NCBI GenBank assembly: GCA_026197075.1
Contig: JAPHQV010000035.1
Span: 1 to 40,126 of the forward strand
DNA from: Gammaproteobacteria bacterium
GTDB taxonomy: Bacteria > Pseudomonadota > Gammaproteobacteria > DSM-19610
Length of the DNA: 40,126 nt
Direction of reading: 5' to 3'
Positions 20,414-27,502 of this stretch are shown piece after piece. Position numbers and translations under genes: made by a program. The first letter of the stretch is position 1. The number at the start of each line of letters is the position of its first letter. Below the pieces are notes generated by a model. It searched no databases. It saw only the letters and a program-made list of their open reading frames with translations, and was not told the origin of the DNA.

Positions 20414-22693
20414 ATGACCATCTCCGCGGGGGAAGATCGCCAATTCTGGATCAGGCAGTTCCGTGTTCCCCTGCTCCTCTCCCTGCCGCTGATCGCCATC
20501 GCCCAGTACAATTTCCTGCTGTTCCATACCCTGGCGGAATTCTTCGCCATTTTCGTCGCCTTCCTGATCGGGGTAGTGGCCTGGAACACGTTTGAGTTTT
20601 CCCGTAACCACTACCTCATGTACCTCGGTTGCGGTTACCTGTGGATAGGCCTGCTCGACACCCTGCACACCCTGACCTTCCCGGGCATCGGTGTCTTTTC
20701 CCCCGGCGGCATGAATGCGACCCTCGGTTTCTGGATCGGCACCCGCCTGCTGGAGGGCATGATCCTGCTCACGGCGCCCCTGTTCCTGCGCCATACCCTC
20801 ATGCGTACACCCGCAATTCTTGGATTTGGCCTGTACTCCCTGGTCCTCATCCTGCTCGTCGGGCGCGACATGCTGCCCGACCTGTACATCCCGGGCGAGG
20901 GCCTTACCCGCGTCAAGATCTACAGTGAATACCTGATCATTCTCCTGCTCGCCGCCGCCACGGCCTATCTTTGGCTGCGGCGCCGTTGGGTCGAACCCCG
21001 CATCCTGCTACTCATGTTCTGGTCCATCGGGTTGACCATGGCCTCGGAGCTGATGTTCACCCAGTACATAAACCCCAACGACCAGATCCTCATGGTCGGC
21101 CACCTGTTCAAGCTGGCCTCTTACTGGCTGATCTACGCCGCCATCGTGCAAACGGGTCTGGAGGAGCCCTTTCGCATCCTGGCACGCAGTGCCCACACCT
21201 ACGACGCCATCCCCGACCCGGTGTTGCTGGTGGACAGGCAGGGCCGGGTACACGAGGCGAACCATGCAGCCCTGCGCACCGCGCGCAGCGCCGAACACGA
21301 ACTGCTGGGGCATAGCAGTCATCGACTCTTTCATGACCCGGCGCTTCCCGAGCAGGATTGCCCGGTCTGCCAGTCCATTCACAACGGTCGACCCGGCAGC
21401 ATCACCGTAGCGCTGCCGGGAAGTGACGAATGGCGGGAAATCGCCCTCTCGCCGATACGCAGCGCCGGCCTGCACCAGGGCATGGTGCAGACGATTCGCG
21501 ATATCACCACCCAGAAGCGTAATGAGACGGAAATCATCCGCCACCGCCAGGAGCTGCAGAACCAGGTCACAAAGCGCACCGCGGAGCTGGAAGAAAACCG
21601 CCGCATCCTCAGCAACCTCATCAGTAACCTGCCGGGTGCCGTATACCGCTGCTGGAATGATGAGAACTGGACCATACTGTTCATGAGCGATGGCATCCGT
21701 GCCCTGACCGGCTACAGCGCGCAGTCATTCCTGGACAAGAAGATCCTGCTGGGCAGGGATATCATCCACCCGGAGGATCGAGAACGGGTATGGCGCGAAG
21801 TACAACAAGGACTGGAACAGGACGGCAGTTTCCAACTCACCTACCGTATACGCACTGTCGAGGGCGAAACCCGCTGGGCCTGGGAAAAAGGCATTGGCAT
21901 CTATGATGAACAGGGCAACCTGCTCAGCCTCGAGGGCTTCATCACCGACATGACCGACCGCAAGGAGGCCGAGGAAGCGCTGCTGCAGACGTCCAACCGG
22001 CTGGCGTTCATGAACCAGGAGCTGGAGGGATTCAACTATTCCGTGTCCCACGACCTGCGTGGCCCATTGCGTGCCATCGATGGATTCAGCCTGATACTGG
22101 AAGAGGAATACGCCGACCGGCTCGATGCCCGTGGCCACGATTACCTGCGACGCGTACGCATGGCGGCACAGAAAATGGGCCGGCTGATCGACGACCTCTT
22201 GCAGCTGTCGCGGGTAGGTCGTGGTGAGTTGATGCGGGAAGCTGTAGACCTTGGTGAACTGGTGCGACAGTCCCTGGCGCAACTCCAGGAATCCAATCCC
22301 GAATTGGAGGCAGAAATCCATATCGAAGACGGTTTGCGAACCTATGGAGATCGCGGGCTGTTGCAGGTGGTCACGGACAACCTGGTCGGAAATGCCTGGA
22401 AATACTCCTCGCACAAGACAAAAATACATATCCAGGTGGGCAGCATGCCCCATAACGGGACCCCGGTCTTTTTCATCCGTGACCGCGGCGCGGGCTTCGA
22501 TATGGCCTATGCCGACAAGCTGTTCGGCGCCTTCCAGCGCCTGCACAGTGACGAGGAATACGAGGGAACGGGGATCGGCCTGGCGACGGTACACCGCATC
22601 ATCCAGCGCCATGGCGGCAGCATCTGGGCGGAATCCGTCATCGACCAGGGCAGCACATTCTACTTCACCCTGGGTGACTCGACCAAAAACTGA
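20414..22693 (+). CDS. MASE3-PAS-PAS sensor histidine kinase
   Basis: A 759-residue membrane-bound kinase. Residues about 15-240 are a MASE3 membrane sensor with roughly eight helices and conserved motifs (TFEFSRNHYLMYLGCGYLWIG). Two PAS domains follow, about 255-370 and 395-520, separated by a coiled coil. The HisKA domain has SHDLRGPLRAI with the phospho-accepting His546. The HATPase domain has the N box DNLVGNAWKYSS, the G1 box DRGAGFDM and the EGTGIGLATVHRI G2 box. The C terminus ends in the kinase core, with no receiver domain. No response regulator gene lies nearby, so the kinase is an orphan. The MASE3 ligand is unknown. Confidence 0.94.
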   Translation: MTISAGEDRQFWIRQFRVPLLLSLPLIAIAQYNFLLFHTLAEFFAIFVAFLIGVVAWNTFEFSRNHYLMYLGCGYLWIGLLDTLHTLTFPGIGVFSPGGMNATLGFWIGTRLLEGMILLTAPLFLRHTLMRTPAILGFGLYSLVLILLVGRDMLPDLYIPGEGLTRVKIYSEYLIILLLAAATAYLWLRRRWVEPRILLLMFWSIGLTMASELMFTQYINPNDQILMVGHLFKLASYWLIYAAIVQTGLEEPFRILARSAHTYDAIPDPVLLVDRQGRVHEANHAALRTARSAEHELLGHSSHRLFHDPALPEQDCPVCQSIHNGRPGSITVALPGSDEWREIALSPIRSAGLHQGMVQTIRDITTQKRNETEIIRHRQELQNQVTKRTAELEENRRILSNLISNLPGAVYRCWNDENWTILFMSDGIRALTGYSAQSFLDKKILLGRDIIHPEDRERVWREVQQGLEQDGSFQLTYRIRTVEGETRWAWEKGIGIYDEQGNLLSLEGFITDMTDRKEAEEALLQTSNRLAFMNQELEGFNYSVSHDLRGPLRAIDGFSLILEEEYADRLDARGHDYLRRVRMAAQKMGRLIDDLLQLSRVGRGELMREAVDLGELVRQSLAQLQESNPELEAEIHIEDGLRTYGDRGLLQVVTDNLVGNAWKYSSHKTKIHIQVGSMPHNGTPVFFIRDRGAGFDMAYADKLFGAFQRLHSDEEYEGTGIGLATVHRIIQRHGGSIWAESVIDQGSTFYFTLGDSTKN

Positions 22694-22733
22694 AGGCTCT
22701 CATCATCGCGAGCCGGTATACCTCCAGTTAGGC

Positions 22734-23168
22734 TCAGTCGTGCTGGCCGGGCTTGAAGCGGGTGAGGTAATGCAGCGTGATGAACGTGAGTACCGAGAGC
22801 ACGATGGCCACCTCCAGTCTTCTGTACGCCACCGCCATGCCGATGGCGCCGGTGGACCAGATCGCGGCCGCCGTGGCCAGCCCCTTGACGCTGGTGGAAT
22901 TCTTGAGAATGACGCCACCGCCGATGAAGCCGATCCCCGTGAGCAGGCCCTGTACCGCACGGGACTGGGCATCCTCTCCGGGAAACACCGACAGGCTGAT
23001 CAGGATATAGGCGCAGGCGGAAACCGCCACCAGCGAGAAGGTGCGCAAGCCCGCAGAGTGGGTGGCACGCTCCCGCTCCCAGCCAATCGGCAATGCCAGT
23101 AAATAGGCAACGGACATCAACAGCAAATGGTTGCCCACCAGGTTCCAGTCCACATCCAGATTAAGCAT
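22734..23168 (-). CDS. MgtC/SapB family inner-membrane protein
   Basis: A 144-residue protein with four hydrophobic helices and the MgtC N-terminal domain hallmarks: LLALPIGWERERATHSAGLRTF and GLLTGIGFIGGGVILKN. MgtC-type proteins help cells cope with low magnesium, acid or host-cell stress and often modulate the F-ATPase. This short form lacks the C-terminal ACT-like domain, as many environmental members do. The ATG at 23168 has a clear GGAGG five bases upstream; the longer frame to 23228 is out of line with the family. It lies 35 bases after the CHAD gene. Confidence 0.92.
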   Translation of the reverse strand: MLNLDVDWNLVGNHLLLMSVAYLLALPIGWERERATHSAGLRTFSLVAVSACAYILISLSVFPGEDAQSRAVQGLLTGIGFIGGGVILKNSTSVKGLATAAAIWSTGAIGMAVAYRRLEVAIVLSVLTFITLHYLTRFKPGQHD

Positions 23169-23203
23169 GTATACCTCCGCATCCATTCCATGCCGAACCA
23201 CAC

Positions 23204-24112
23204 CTATTCCACACGCCGGATTTCCCACCAGGATTCGATGCGCTTGCGAAATCGCTTGGATTTTTCCGCATACACACGATAGCCAACCCGGTATGCCTCG
23301 CTGCGGAGCACATCCTGGCGATGCTCGATACTCCGCTGCAACGCTTCGACAATCGTCTCGGGAAGGGTGTCCTCGGGGAGTTCCCGCAGCCTCTGGTGGA
23401 ACATGGCAAGGTCATGATCGTCGCCCAGCAGATCCGATAGTCGTTTCATCTCCTTTGCATAGGGTTTCATCAACCTGGGCCAGACATCCACCAGCAGGCG
23501 ACTGTGATACCAATGGTCCTTGACCCGCTTGCGCCATTCATGGAAACGGGAGTCGGTGGGCGATTCGCGGGTCTTGCGCAGCGTCTTGCGGCCCCGGGCA
23601 TGAGTCCATTGCAGGCCCTTCCCCAGGGCCTCGAAACCCTGCCCATCGATGGACAGGCGGGTCATCTCCTGGTGCGCTGCCCGCAAGTCCTCCGCGACGG
23701 CCGCCATCCGCGTCTTCAGATCCCGGCTGTCTTCGCCGGCTTCCTGACCGGAACCTGCGGCGAGTTTGCACCGCAAGACAGACAGATCCGGGGCAGCCGC
23801 GTCGACCCGCATAGCCTCCTCCAGCTCATCCAGTGTTCGCAGCAGGACATCGGCGTCGCGAGCACTCGCCAATGATCGACCCAGGTCCCGGAAACGACGA
23901 TTCCAGTCCTTGTAGACCTCGCGGTCCAGGGCGGGACGAACCAGTCGCAACAGACTACGCAGTTTCTTGAGGCGCTTGCGGGCCTGGTGCACGGCCTTGG
24001 CGGGATCCAGTTCAGGGTCGGTCAGGTCCGCGCTGGCGCGCTCGAGCTGCTGACAGGCGATGCGTCGCAACTCCTGTTCCACGTTCTTTCGGGATTTGAA
24101 ACGATATGCCAC
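23204..24112 (-). CDS. CHAD-domain protein (polyphosphate-binding)
   Basis: A 302-residue all-helical protein made of one CHAD domain. The family signatures are VHQARKRLKKLRSLLRLVRP, FRDLGRSLASARDADV and RKRVKDHWYHSRLL, rich in Arg, Lys and conserved His that bind polyphosphate. It is not fused to a CYTH triphosphatase domain here, and no CYTH gene lies nearby. The start is uncertain: GTG at 24112 gives VAYRFKSRKNVEQELRRIA, the usual family opening; GTG at 24169 would add 19 residues. PPK2 at 36272 is another polyphosphate gene in the window, but unlinked. Confidence 0.9.
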   Translation of the reverse strand: MAYRFKSRKNVEQELRRIACQQLERASADLTDPELDPAKAVHQARKRLKKLRSLLRLVRPALDREVYKDWNRRFRDLGRSLASARDADVLLRTLDELEEAMRVDAAAPDLSVLRCKLAAGSGQEAGEDSRDLKTRMAAVAEDLRAAHQEMTRLSIDGQGFEALGKGLQWTHARGRKTLRKTRESPTDSRFHEWRKRVKDHWYHSRLLVDVWPRLMKPYAKEMKRLSDLLGDDHDLAMFHQRLRELPEDTLPETIVEALQRSIEHRQDVLRSEAYRVGYRVYAEKSKRFRKRIESWWEIRRVE

Positions 24113-24278: not shown

Positions 24279-25586
24279 TCAGAAGATCGCCAGCACCTGC
24301 ACGGCCAACCGGTTGTCGATGCCATCCAGGATCTGGTTGGGTACCGCGGTTCCCGCCAGATTCGGCGCCTCGGCATCGCGGATCTCGTAGTTGAAGATCA
24401 GCCGGGTCTTGCGGTTGAGGAAGTACTGCGCACCCAGGGTCAAGGTCTCGAACTGGCGTTCAGCGGCGGCCACATTCGTCACCCGGTTGAGCACATCGTA
24501 GCGGATGTCCAGTTCCCATTTGGGGCTGACCGCGTAACCGAAATGGGCATACCAGCCATCGGCCTCGCCATCCGTCGCCACGTTCCAGGAAGCCGTGGCA
24601 GTATCGGCGTTGTTGCGCGAACCCGGCACAGCGCCGCCGTCGGTACCATCCGCGACCATGCCATCAGCCTTCACGTATTCGAAGGCGGCCCGGTAGCGAT
24701 CCTTGCGGAAGGTGGTACCCACGCCCCAGCGGTCACGATCGAATTCCTGGTCCAGGTTCACCAGTGTGCGCTTGCCCTGTTGGCTCCAGGCGAACAGCTT
24801 CCAGTCGTCCCGGCGCGGACCCTGTCCGGAAAATATCTTCGCGGAGGACCAGTACAGGTAGACATCCTTGTTATCGTCATTGTCACCGCGGGCAATGCCG
24901 TTGCCGTTGCCGACCATCAAGGCATAGCTGTGTTCCCAGTCATTGTGCTTGAAGCTGTCGAACACCTGCACACCCACGTCGCGGAAGGCACCGACGGCGC
25001 CATTGGGACTGTTGGCGGATTGTGTATCCGAACCGTCACCATCATAGAACCGTTCCAGCAGCAGGCCGTTGGTCATATTGGTGAAATTGATGTAGTCGAA
25101 GACATGGATGGCCTGCAGGCCTTCTTCCGAACCCGGGTACTTGAACTGGCCGATACGAAAACGGGCACCATTGATATGATTGAAGGTTACACTGGCATCG
25201 GTGACCTTGACGCTACCACCACCATTACGGGTGATGGCGTTGTTGCCGGCTTCCACGAGGAAGAAGTAATTGACATTGCTGTCCAGGGGGAAGCCCGCCC
25301 CGCGCACGCCGAGACGGGCACGGCGGATGTTGAACTGGGAATCGGTGTTCAGGTCCGGACCGATCTGGTTGAACACCGCGGACTGACCGGAGAATGGCCC
25401 GGCCTTGAGATCGGTGCCGCTGGTACTCTGGTATTCGGGCTGGACGAAGCCCCACACCTTGGCCATTTCCGCCGAACCGACCGGTTCCGTTCCCTGCAGC
25501 ATCAGCCAGTTGGCGGAATGCGCCTGTCCCGCCAACAGGGTTGTGGCGAGCAGGGTTCCGGTTACGAATGTATTCCTGATTTGCAT
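24279..25586 (-). CDS. OprO/OprP-type phosphate-selective porin
   Basis: A 435-residue outer-membrane beta-barrel. A signal peptide of about 25 residues ends AHSA. Residues about 45-435 show alternating aromatic strands and end in F, as barrel proteins do. Markers of the OprO/P family are FNIRRARLGVRG, FRIGQFKYPGSEEGLQ and the C-terminal RLIFNYEIRDAEAP. OprP and OprO take up phosphate and pyrophosphate or polyphosphate; the specificity here cannot be read off, and family members also serve other anions. The ATG has GGAGA upstream. It lies 21 bases after the DsrE-like gene and should share its transcript. Confidence 0.9.
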   Translation of the reverse strand: MQIRNTFVTGTLLATTLLAGQAHSANWLMLQGTEPVGSAEMAKVWGFVQPEYQSTSGTDLKAGPFSGQSAVFNQIGPDLNTDSQFNIRRARLGVRGAGFPLDSNVNYFFLVEAGNNAITRNGGGSVKVTDASVTFNHINGARFRIGQFKYPGSEEGLQAIHVFDYINFTNMTNGLLLERFYDGDGSDTQSANSPNGAVGAFRDVGVQVFDSFKHNDWEHSYALMVGNGNGIARGDNDDNKDVYLYWSSAKIFSGQGPRRDDWKLFAWSQQGKRTLVNLDQEFDRDRWGVGTTFRKDRYRAAFEYVKADGMVADGTDGGAVPGSRNNADTATASWNVATDGEADGWYAHFGYAVSPKWELDIRYDVLNRVTNVAAAERQFETLTLGAQYFLNRKTRLIFNYEIRDAEAPNLAGTAVPNQILDGIDNRLAVQVLAIF

Positions 25587-25607
25587 GTGTTTTCTCCAGT
25601 CTTCTGA

Positions 25608-26057
25608 TTATGGCTTGATCAGGGTGTAACCCTGGTTGGTCAGATCGATGATGCGCACCACCCCCGCACTGACGTGGGTGGCGTGAGGATTGAGCTCCGG
25701 TTCTTCGTCCAGTAATTTGGTGAAAGCGGAAATGGTATTTTCACAGGCGGAAAACCGAACTCCGCTGTCATTGGCCAGCTGATCGATGCGCTCGACATTG
25801 GAATTGTCCTTCAGGAGCAGACGCAATCCCGGGCCGAAAGCAACGATTTCCACGTCCACAGCATCGGGCCCGTAGTGCTTGATGAGGTTCCCGGCCACAT
25901 TGAGCACCAGGGTCTGCTTGAAGGGGTCCGGATCACTGATCTGCAGGACCACCCGGTGTTGTGCGAAGGGTTTGGTGACGGATTCGGCGGTGAGCGCGGT
26001 GCTGGATAAGAACAGCAGTATGAGCCCATAACAAACGGACAAAAAATATTTAGGCAT
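25608..26057 (-). CDS. Secreted DsrE-like protein
   Basis: A 149-residue exported protein: a signal peptide (about 1-23, ending ALTA) and one DsrE/COG1416-like domain. Conserved family elements are VEIVAFGPGLRLLL, FSACENT with the single mature-region Cys at 105, and GVVRIIDLTNQGYTLIKP at the end. Cytoplasmic DsrE proteins relay sulfane sulfur through a Cys, but whether this one does so is unknown. Its sequence resembles the C-terminal domain of the anti-sigma-like protein encoded divergently at 26780. GGGAG precedes the ATG. It is the first gene of the porin operon. Confidence 0.88.
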   Translation of the reverse strand: MPKYFLSVCYGLILLFLSSTALTAESVTKPFAQHRVVLQISDPDPFKQTLVLNVAGNLIKHYGPDAVDVEIVAFGPGLRLLLKDNSNVERIDQLANDSGVRFSACENTISAFTKLLDEEPELNPHATHVSAGVVRIIDLTNQGYTLIKP

Positions 26058-26090
26058 GTAGACTCCCTGTTAGTGGGGTTATGAGAGTAC

Positions 26091-26110
26091 GGATACAGTG
26101 TCATGTGTCC
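26091..26110. promoter_or_regulatory. Imperfect palindrome upstream of the DsrE-like gene
   Basis: GGATACA and TGTGTCC, six bases apart, pair in six of seven positions. The site lies 34 to 53 bases before the DsrE-like ATG, in the region shared with the divergent sigma factor. It could be an operator; no known regulator is suggested by the sequence. Confidence 0.33.
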
Positions 26111-26115
26111 GCCCC

Positions 26116-26144
26116 TAGAGTCCTGCCACAAAGAAATTATTCCC
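26116..26144 (-). promoter_or_regulatory. Possible ECF-type promoter of the dsrE-like/porin operon
   Basis: On the minus strand GGGAATAA is followed 14 bases later by GACTCTA. A GGGAATAA-like -35 with a GTC/ACTC-like -10 would suit some ECF sigma factors, but the spacing and exact pairs are not established for this group. Confidence 0.3.
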
Positions 26145-26167
26145 GGATATCCATGATTTCGCGAAAA

Positions 26168-26197
26168 TTGAACTTTTTTCTGGAAATCGTGAATAAA
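26168..26197 (+). promoter_or_regulatory. Weak housekeeping-type promoter for the sigma factor gene
   Basis: TTGAAC and AATAAA, separated by 18 bases, each match 4 of 6 consensus bases. It would start RNA just before the sigma gene. It does not share the GGGAATAA element of the opposite strand. Confidence 0.33.
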
Positions 26198-26226
26198 ATC
26201 GTCCACTGGTGCATCTAGTGCTCAGG

Positions 26227-26778
26227 ATGAAAATCATCAGTCGCATCTGCACCAGTCATGCCCTGCGCGGCCGCATCGCGGATTCCCGCGGTCGGCTCTA
26301 CCGGGTTGCGCTCGCCTGGTGCAGCAATGCCATGCTGGCCGATGACCTGGTCCAGGAAACCATGGCCATTGCCATTCAGCGTCAGCATCAGTTACGTGAC
26401 CAGGAACGGCTCTATGCCTGGCTGTACAGCATCCTGAACAATACCTGGCGACAGCATTTGCGGCGCCAGCGCGATTACAGCCAATACGATGAAGATCTGC
26501 AGCACGACGAACGGGACCCGGAATTCAACATGCAAGCCCTGGAGATCGTCACCAAGGTGCGCAAGGCTGTTTCCGCCCTGCCCGAGGACCAGCGCCAGGT
26601 GATCGCCCTGGTGGACCTGGAAGGCTTTTCCTATTGCGAAGTCGCCGGCATCCTTGAGATCCCCATCGGCACGGTCATGAGCCGTCTGCACCGGGCGCGA
26701 AAATCGCTGCAGAATGCCCTGGAAGAACTGAAACCCCGACACGAAATTCGCAAAGGTCATCTTCGCAGAGTGAAATGA
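26227..26778 (+). CDS. ECF-type RNA polymerase sigma factor
   Basis: A 183-residue sigma-70 family factor of the extracytoplasmic-function size. Region 2 spans about 20-85 (RLYRVALAWC, ADDLVQETMAIAIQR, LYAWLYSILNNTWRQHLRR). Region 4 spans about 115-170 (VSALPEDQRQVIALVDLEGFSYCEVAGILEIPIGTVMSRLHRAR). There is no region 1.1 or 3. I use the ATG at 26227; GTG at 26209 or 26218 would add a few residues. Its stop precedes the anti-sigma-like gene by one base, the usual coupling of an ECF factor with its regulator. The divergent DsrE-porin operon is its likely target. Confidence 0.92.
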   Translation: MKIISRICTSHALRGRIADSRGRLYRVALAWCSNAMLADDLVQETMAIAIQRQHQLRDQERLYAWLYSILNNTWRQHLRRQRDYSQYDEDLQHDERDPEFNMQALEIVTKVRKAVSALPEDQRQVIALVDLEGFSYCEVAGILEIPIGTVMSRLHRARKSLQNALEELKPRHEIRKGHLRRVK

Positions 26779-26779
26779 G

Positions 26780-27502
26780 ATGAATGCACGACCAATATTC
26801 AGTGATGATTTGCTGCATGCCTACCTCGATGGCGAACTGGATGCCTTGACAGGACAGCAGATCCAGGACGCCATGAAAGAGGATGCGGCACTGCGCGGCC
26901 GCGTGCATGCTTTATTGAATACCAAGGAAATGATGCAACTGGCCTTCTCCAGCGCAAAACCGCCCAGGGCGAGCAAGCCCCTGCCGGCAACACGCGGCGT
27001 CCGTCCAATGTACGGGTTGGCGGCCTCGCTGCTGGTACTCACCCTGTGTTTTGGCGTGGGCGTACTGGGCTATCGAACCGCCCCCTTGCTGGAACAGGTG
27101 CTCGCCAGTCAGACAGCACCAAATCCCTCGACACGGCTGGTTCTGCACGTCGGTGAATCCGACCCCGAGCGTTTCGCGGCCACCCTGGCCTACGCAGAGC
27201 GGTATCTCAGCGAACAGGCTGGATCCGGTGCCATGATCGAAGTGGTGGCCAATGCCGGGGGACTGGATCTGCTGCTCCAGGGAGGCTCTCCTCATGAAGC
27301 GCGGATCCTGGAGATGATGGATCGCCATGAAAACCTGCACTTCGTGGCCTGCATGAACACCCTGCGCAAGCTGCAGCGCCAAGGCGCCACCCCGGTGCTG
27401 ATCCGGGATGTCCAAACCGACCGCACCGCCGTGGACTACATCGTAGAACGAATCTTGCAGGGCTGGACCTACGTCAAGGTCGATCAGCTACCCGAGGTCT
27501 GA
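26780..27502 (+). CDS. Transmembrane anti-sigma-like protein with periplasmic DsrE-like domain
   Basis: A 240-residue fusion. Residues 1-50 resemble an anti-sigma N terminus (DDLLHAYLDGELDALTGQQ) but without the zinc-binding HxxxCxxC motif. One transmembrane helix spans about 78-98. Residues 117-235 form a DsrE/COG1416-like domain (LVLHVGESDPERF, IEVVANAGGLDLLLQ, FVACMNTLRKL, ILQGWTYVKV), predicted in the periplasm. Its Cys191 aligns with Cys105 of the secreted DsrE-like protein. This layout suggests a signal-sensing anti-sigma factor. It follows the sigma gene by one base and its last 15 bases overlap the end of the convergent mtnC gene. Confidence 0.87.
   Translation: MNARPIFSDDLLHAYLDGELDALTGQQIQDAMKEDAALRGRVHALLNTKEMMQLAFSSAKPPRASKPLPATRGVRPMYGLAASLLVLTLCFGVGVLGYRTAPLLEQVLASQTAPNPSTRLVLHVGESDPERFAATLAYAERYLSEQAGSGAMIEVVANAGGLDLLLQGGSPHEARILEMMDRHENLHFVACMNTLRKLQRQGATPVLIRDVQTDRTAVDYIVERILQGWTYVKVDQLPEV

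Follow-up and report, generated by a model that had tools for sequence, protein, structure and literature searches.

What does a sigma factor respond to when the periplasmic part of its anti-sigma factor resembles a sulfur-carrier protein, and which genes does it control? The question is raised by a locus at positions 24279–27502 of the window, by which is meant the whole stretch analysed here (40 126 nucleotides; contig JAPHQV010000035.1 of the gammaproteobacterial assembly GCA_026197075.1). The genes for an extracytoplasmic function (ECF) sigma factor and an anti-sigma factor, which form one operon as judged by gene order, are divergent from the genes for a secreted DsrE-like protein and an OprO/P-type porin. 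We assign a probability of about two in three to the reading that this pair is an ECF26-like switch, in which the DsrE domain anchored in the membrane detects sulfane sulfur or thiosulfate in the periplasm and turns on the exported DsrE protein, the porin and, in some lineages, Sox. All four genes were found at the positions given by an earlier, sequence-only reading of this DNA. They and their predicted promoters are as follows:

24279–25586, minus strand: OprO/P-type outer-membrane porin, 435 amino acids, signal peptide; last gene of the DsrE–porin operon
25608–26057, minus strand: secreted DsrE-like protein, 149 amino acids, signal peptide, single mature Cys (C105)
26116–26143, minus strand: predicted ECF26-type promoter of the DsrE–porin operon, GGAATAA-N17-TCTA
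26191–26217, plus strand: predicted ECF26-type autoregulatory promoter of the sigma operon, GAATAA-N17-TCTA
26227–26778, plus strand: ECF sigma factor, 183 amino acids counted from ATG 26227
26780–27502, plus strand: anti-sigma factor with DsrE-like domain, 240 amino acids
Parts of the anti-sigma factor (residues): cytoplasmic helices 9–55; long helix 78–110 with the membrane span; periplasmic DsrE-like domain ca. 117–233 with a single Cys (C191)

Two homologous DsrE-like domains with one cysteine each

The anti-sigma factor had been described as a short cytoplasmic part, here predicted as three helices at residues 9–55, followed by one membrane helix and a periplasmic domain resembling the secreted protein, an architecture that is borne out by profile–profile and fold matches. 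The secreted protein scored 24.7 bits with the Pfam DsrE model PF02635, narrowly above the cut-off of 22.7, and the periplasmic half of the anti-sigma factor gave no Pfam match at all, the DsrE model included; it is therefore termed DsrE-like here and not a member of PF02635. The two sequences matched each other directly by BLASTP (E 1e-10), and comparison of their family profiles with hhalign, by using alignments of 36 diverse anti-sigma factors and 21 exported DsrE proteins, gave a probability of 99.7 % and an E value of 1.4e-26 with C191 aligned on C105, so that the two domains are homologous. Both matched MTH1491 (PDB 1L1S) in sequence (3e-8 for the secreted protein, 2e-6 for the anti-sigma factor). 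AlphaFold models (predicted local distance difference test scores of 86.9 and 92.4) likewise found 1L1S as the top match for both, followed by other DsrE-like structures; the Foldseek values were E 1.3e-9 with a template-modelling (TM) score of 0.91 on the target for the secreted protein, and E 7.0e-9 with a TM-score of 0.88 on the target for the anti-sigma domain. The profiles align and both models find 1L1S, so the two domains do not belong to unrelated folds, and a chance likeness is ruled out by the BLASTP, profile–profile and fold matches taken together. Class I anti-sigma domains are N-terminal, helical and sigma-binding, and a zinc motif is optional in them. An assignment to the zinc-finger (zf-HC2/ChrR-type) anti-sigma factors was rejected: the zf-HC2 score of 18.7 bits lies below the cut-off of 22.2, and the cytoplasmic part contains no Cys.

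Across the 36 diverse anti-sigma factors only L20, C191, G228 and W229 are invariant. Exactly one Cys, always in the same motif, was present in every one of the 80 anti-sigma DsrE domains that could be excised automatically and scored. C105 is invariant in the 21 exported DsrE proteins, and 53 of 54 free DsrE proteins have one Cys beyond residue 30. A single conserved thiol would suit sulfur loading more than an internal disulfide switch.

In fold and Cys position, both the free and the anchored domain are like the MTH1491/ST0148-type DsrE-like proteins (PDB 1L1S, 2PD2; PF02635), from which they differ in being exported and in that the anchored one forms part of a membrane anti-sigma factor. 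The DsrE/TusA sulfur carriers (DsrEFH of Allochromatium, DsrE3A of Metallosphaera) belong to the same DsrE superfamily, and DsrE3A binds thiosulfonate on Cys (PMC4175335); these carriers are cytoplasmic, however, and gave only distant fold matches to the window domains (2HY5). No DsrE-type anti-sigma factor was found in a literature search of open-licence papers, and as far as found, a DsrE-like sensor domain is previously undescribed for anti-sigma factors. Literature on Arcobacter and Pseudomonas stutzeri yielded no DsrE link, and an apparent mention of DsrE in PMC3511301 proved to be DsRed. The view that exported DsrE proteins are unusual held for the membrane-anchored anti-sigma version and did not hold for export as such, which is common: five free DsrE-like proteins are encoded in the genome. 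Three of them, on contigs C54, C34 and C4 (L140–L142), have signal-peptide-like starts and lack the sigma motif described below; in this set one adjoins two cytochromes c and one lies near rhodanese- and glutaredoxin-like genes.

A predicted ECF26-type promoter and its candidate targets

The sigma factor matched PF04542 (47.4 bits) and PF08281 (62.3 bits), both above cut-off, with no other sigma regions. It is 39–43 % identical to ECF26-type sigma factors of Sinorhizobium, Methylorubrum and Agrobacterium, and scored 94.7 bits to RpoE6 and 98.2 bits to an RpoE1-like sigma factor, compared with 85 bits to the genome's own RpoE-like sigma factor; RpoE6 scored 100 against the same RpoE1-like protein. 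ECF26 anti-sigma factors are of the COG5662 type; the cytoplasmic part of the anti-sigma factor in the window is 34 % identical to EcfR6 over 67 amino acids, and its periplasmic domain gave no BLAST match to EcfR6. The ECF26 promoter has been mapped in Sinorhizobium and Starkeya (−35 GGAAT(AA), −10 CGTC(T); PMC6180224, PMC6527743), and the group is linked to the sulfite/thiosulfate response in S. meliloti and Starkeya (PMC6180224, PMC6527743, PMC3511301).

The intergenic regions have in common the motif GGAATAA-N-(C)(G/A)TCTA, one copy of which faces the sigma gene (26191–26217) and one the DsrE–porin operon (26143–26116) in the window. Both sites, GTGAATAA..CATCTA and GGAATAA..ACTCTA, are variants of the published ECF26 pattern. 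For GAATAA-N17-TCTA, two occurrences were observed in the window against 0.03 expected, and two copies were obtained in none of 100 shuffles. The alternative sigma start, GTG 26209, lies 5′ of the predicted transcription start, and ATG 26227 lies only about nine bases past the −10 element; the sigma mRNA may therefore be nearly leaderless. A spacing of 6–9 bases between the −10 element and the sigma start recurs in nine loci altogether, the window included, so that the sigma mRNA may be leaderless in the family.

Genome-wide searches were made by pattern only. The form GAATAA-N15-17-TCTA has seven matches in the whole genome and the strict GGAATAA form three, two of which lie 5′ of exported DsrE genes, namely that of the window and another located on contig C42 (PF02635, 52.9 bits), the third being elsewhere. 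The other matches (C2, C39, C46, C47), within or between unrelated genes, were treated as background. Across 82 loci the motif lies 5′ of 45/82 sigma genes, 26/54 DsrE genes, 3/36 porin genes, 0/83 anti-sigma genes and 5/882 other genes. Among the DsrE genes, twelve neither diverge from sigma nor lie 3′ of the anti-sigma gene; five of these, all outside the sigma factor's intergenic region, are preceded by the motif (Fisher p 4e-8). Porin genes that face sigma with no intervening DsrE gene carry the motif themselves (L052, L094, L102). With the published pattern GGAAT-N17/18-CGTC as an outside test, matches were found before 34/79 sigma genes, 11/54 DsrE genes, 3/36 porin genes and 3/831 others, two of the last three being SoxB-like exported hydrolases that adjoin sigma. 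A chance promoter match was rejected: besides the low expectation for the window, the reversed pattern was found before one of 831 other genes and no sigma or DsrE gene. Control of the DsrE–porin operon by the sigma factor, as proposed earlier, is thus supported by an ECF26-type promoter common to the window, the second contig and many relatives, as far as promoter sequence can indicate.

The pair probably works like ECF26 and, by its predicted promoter, belongs near that group. It shares with S. meliloti RpoE1/EcfR1, RpoE4/EcfR4 and RpoE6/EcfR6, Starkeya novella SigE and RpoE1 the promoter type, predicted autoregulation, a link to sulfur oxyanions and the order of a sigma gene followed by the gene for a single-span anti-sigma factor (the sigma factor of the window is 39 % identical to RpoE6). 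It differs from them in the DsrE-like periplasmic part and in the predicted targets, which are exported DsrE proteins, porin and Sox, whereas those of ECF26 are the SorT sulfite dehydrogenase.

Distribution of the module and its link to sulfur oxidation

The pair is not a local oddity. Matches were found in 34 of 76 genomes of relatives and in 134 of 369 sampled genomes of the organism's class, about 66 of which (counted by hand from the listing) encode a full-length anti-sigma–DsrE fusion. In a whole-phylum sample, full-length fusions occurred in 3 of 398 genomes, the window's own included and all of the same class; outside the class only free DsrE proteins were found in this sample, and a plasmid search gave no full-length match. 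Within four genes of 83 anti-sigma–DsrE genes, a DsrE gene is present in 50 cases and a porin homologue in 36. Of the DsrE genes, 32 are divergent from sigma and 10 are located 3′ of the anti-sigma gene. Several genomes have two or three paralogous pairs.

Further arrangements were seen. Two complete pairs lie in tandem with a DsrE gene flanking each side (L095, L101). Many family f1 genomes carry a second, paralogous pair between glnE/ilvE-like and groEL/groES genes (L062, L064–L070). At L033 (12371–13066, plus strand) a sigma region 4-like stretch runs straight into a DsrE domain and no membrane helix is apparent; the protein may be what is left of a collapsed pair, or else a newly formed fusion. 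An exported DUF302 protein is encoded in the DsrE–porin neighbourhood of six genomes (L033, L035, L038, L040, L041, L042; PF03625 was confirmed for the L033 copy). In the window, the porin matches Pfam PF07396 (Porin_O_P) with 37.4 bits (cut-off 20.9), and the neighbours at 20414–24112 (MASE3–PAS histidine kinase, MgtC-family protein, CHAD-domain protein) have no evident connection with the pair.

In two genomes of one genus (L100, L113) the sigma and anti-sigma genes are followed by soxX, soxY, soxZ, soxA and soxB on one strand with gaps of less than 190 bases, and the promoter lies 53 bases 5′ of sigma. In another family (L120) the pair is adjoined by sox genes, a further DsrE gene and the gene for a YeeE-type sulfur transporter. 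SoxB-like exported hydrolases, which match the SoxB model with a score below its cut-off, face sigma behind the motif at L084 and L104. Of the 66 genomes with the fusion, at least 62 encode SoxB over cut-off, versus 86 of the 303 without it (Fisher p 3e-24, a value that ignores shared ancestry; counts assembled by hand from two listings). The window's genome itself carries soxXYZAB and a YeeE-type transporter gene on contig C26. The pair-headed soxXYZAB operons and the strong co-occurrence with SoxB thus support the earlier suggestion of sulfur as the signal, as read from gene context; another thiol-reactive compound or an anion may serve instead. Since related copies are wired to thiosulfate-oxidation genes, the pair probably represents an undescribed way of sensing periplasmic sulfur compounds. 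In view of DsrE3A, which can hold a Cys-S-thiosulfonate (PMC4175335), it is plausible that the sensor works through the chemistry of thiosulfate or tetrathionate.

The proposed switch and its alternatives

In the ECF26-like switch proposed here, the cytoplasmic helices of the anti-sigma factor would hold the sigma factor in the resting state. Thiosulfate oxidation or other reduced sulfur chemistry would raise periplasmic sulfane sulfur (persulfide, polysulfide or a Cys-S-thiosulfonate adduct) and C191 would be modified by it; the DsrE domain would then alter its shape or oligomeric state, or turn into a protease substrate, and the sigma factor would be freed. The freed sigma factor would raise expression of its own operon, the exported DsrE proteins and the porin. 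The same sulfur may be a ligand or cargo of the exported DsrE proteins, and the porin may serve as an anion passage; by lowering free sulfur, exported DsrE would close a negative feedback loop. As suggested earlier, the secreted copy may also bind the anchored domain or compete with it. The operon, the DsrE/MTH1491 homology, the invariant Cys, the promoters common to sigma, DsrE–porin and the second DsrE gene, and soxXYZAB of the host are the sequence-based part of this reading; from these we infer the signal and ligand, the conformational or proteolytic release and the feedback by free DsrE. We regard it as an even bet that the sulfur-carrier fold was taken over as an anti-sigma sensor, giving a receptor that spans the membrane and reads sulfane sulfur or thiosulfate in the periplasm; in this reading one loaded Cys would directly switch the sigma factor, under whose control would stand exported DsrE, the porin for anions and, depending on the lineage, the Sox enzymes making that sulfur.

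Several points weigh against the switch as proposed. The ligand is deduced from gene context, and the characterised ECF26 sigma factors answer to sulfite-generating compounds and not clearly to sulfane sulfur. Among the divergent DsrE genes, 11 of 32 lack the pattern as written, so that either the pattern is incomplete or regulation varies. The SoxB co-occurrence statistic is uncorrected for shared ancestry, and the strict motif was not found at the sox genes of the window's genome in the genome-wide pattern search; sulfur control here would therefore be limited to DsrE and porin.

The best surviving alternative, which we consider unlikely, would be a system that reads sulfite in the manner of S. 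meliloti RpoE1/RpoE4: its signal would be sulfite, or a step that generates it, and the ligand of the DsrE domain either sulfite or a sulfonated thiol. RpoE1 and RpoE4, which drive a sulfite dehydrogenase, are responsive to thiosulfate and taurine (PMC3511301), both compounds being thought to act via sulfite, and the promoter type is the same; those ECF26 anti-sigma factors were not described as DsrE-type, however, EcfR6 having only the cytoplasmic part in common with the window protein, and sox genes were recognised beside the examined loci but no gene for a sulfite dehydrogenase. It is less probable still, and we would give it little weight, that the DsrE domain is a general thiol/redox sensor (of oxidant, metal or selenite stress) and its link to sulfur metabolism a lineage bias. 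Any thiol-reactive signal could act on the single invariant Cys, the porin is weakly related to the selenite/tellurite-operon porin ExtI (below the ExtI cut-off), and the paralogous pairs of family f1 adjoin groEL and glnE, not sulfur genes; yet it is before exported DsrE genes that the motif recurs, with SoxB-like hydrolases among its few other targets, and sigma stands at the head of soxXYZAB operons. A sensor of the free DsrE protein itself, in which mixed oligomers set anti-sigma activity and the system gauges DsrE export or level and not a small molecule, would fit the homology of the two domains and the free copy adjoining the pair in 50 of 83 cases, but is very improbable in view of the 33 pairs without a DsrE gene within four genes and of the invariant Cys, which argues for chemistry. 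That the neighbourhood is accidental and the divergent operon lies outside the pair's control can practically be dismissed: gene adjacency by itself is no proof of regulation, but the motif lies 5′ of the operon in the window and relatives, even outside the sigma factor's intergenic region.

The sensing of external sulfur by the regulators of sulfur oxidisers is described as poorly understood, and SoxR depends on the YeeE-like protein SoxT1B for its signal (PMC11582611). SoxR/SoxT1B and sHdrR of Hyphomicrobium would be like the switch proposed here in the kind of signal (sulfane sulfur, thiosulfate) and, in some lineages, in their Sox targets; they are ArsR-type cytoplasmic repressors, whereas the sensor of the window would face the periplasm. 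The best-known regulators of sulfur oxidation are cytoplasmic repressors. The sigma/anti-sigma–DsrE pair, with its ties to sox operons and its occurrence in about one sixth of the sampled genomes of the class, is a concrete candidate for a periplasmic sensor and one that can easily be tested. If the proposed switch is true, it would give a role to many unexplained exported DsrE proteins and would add a sulfur-sensing branch to ECF signalling.

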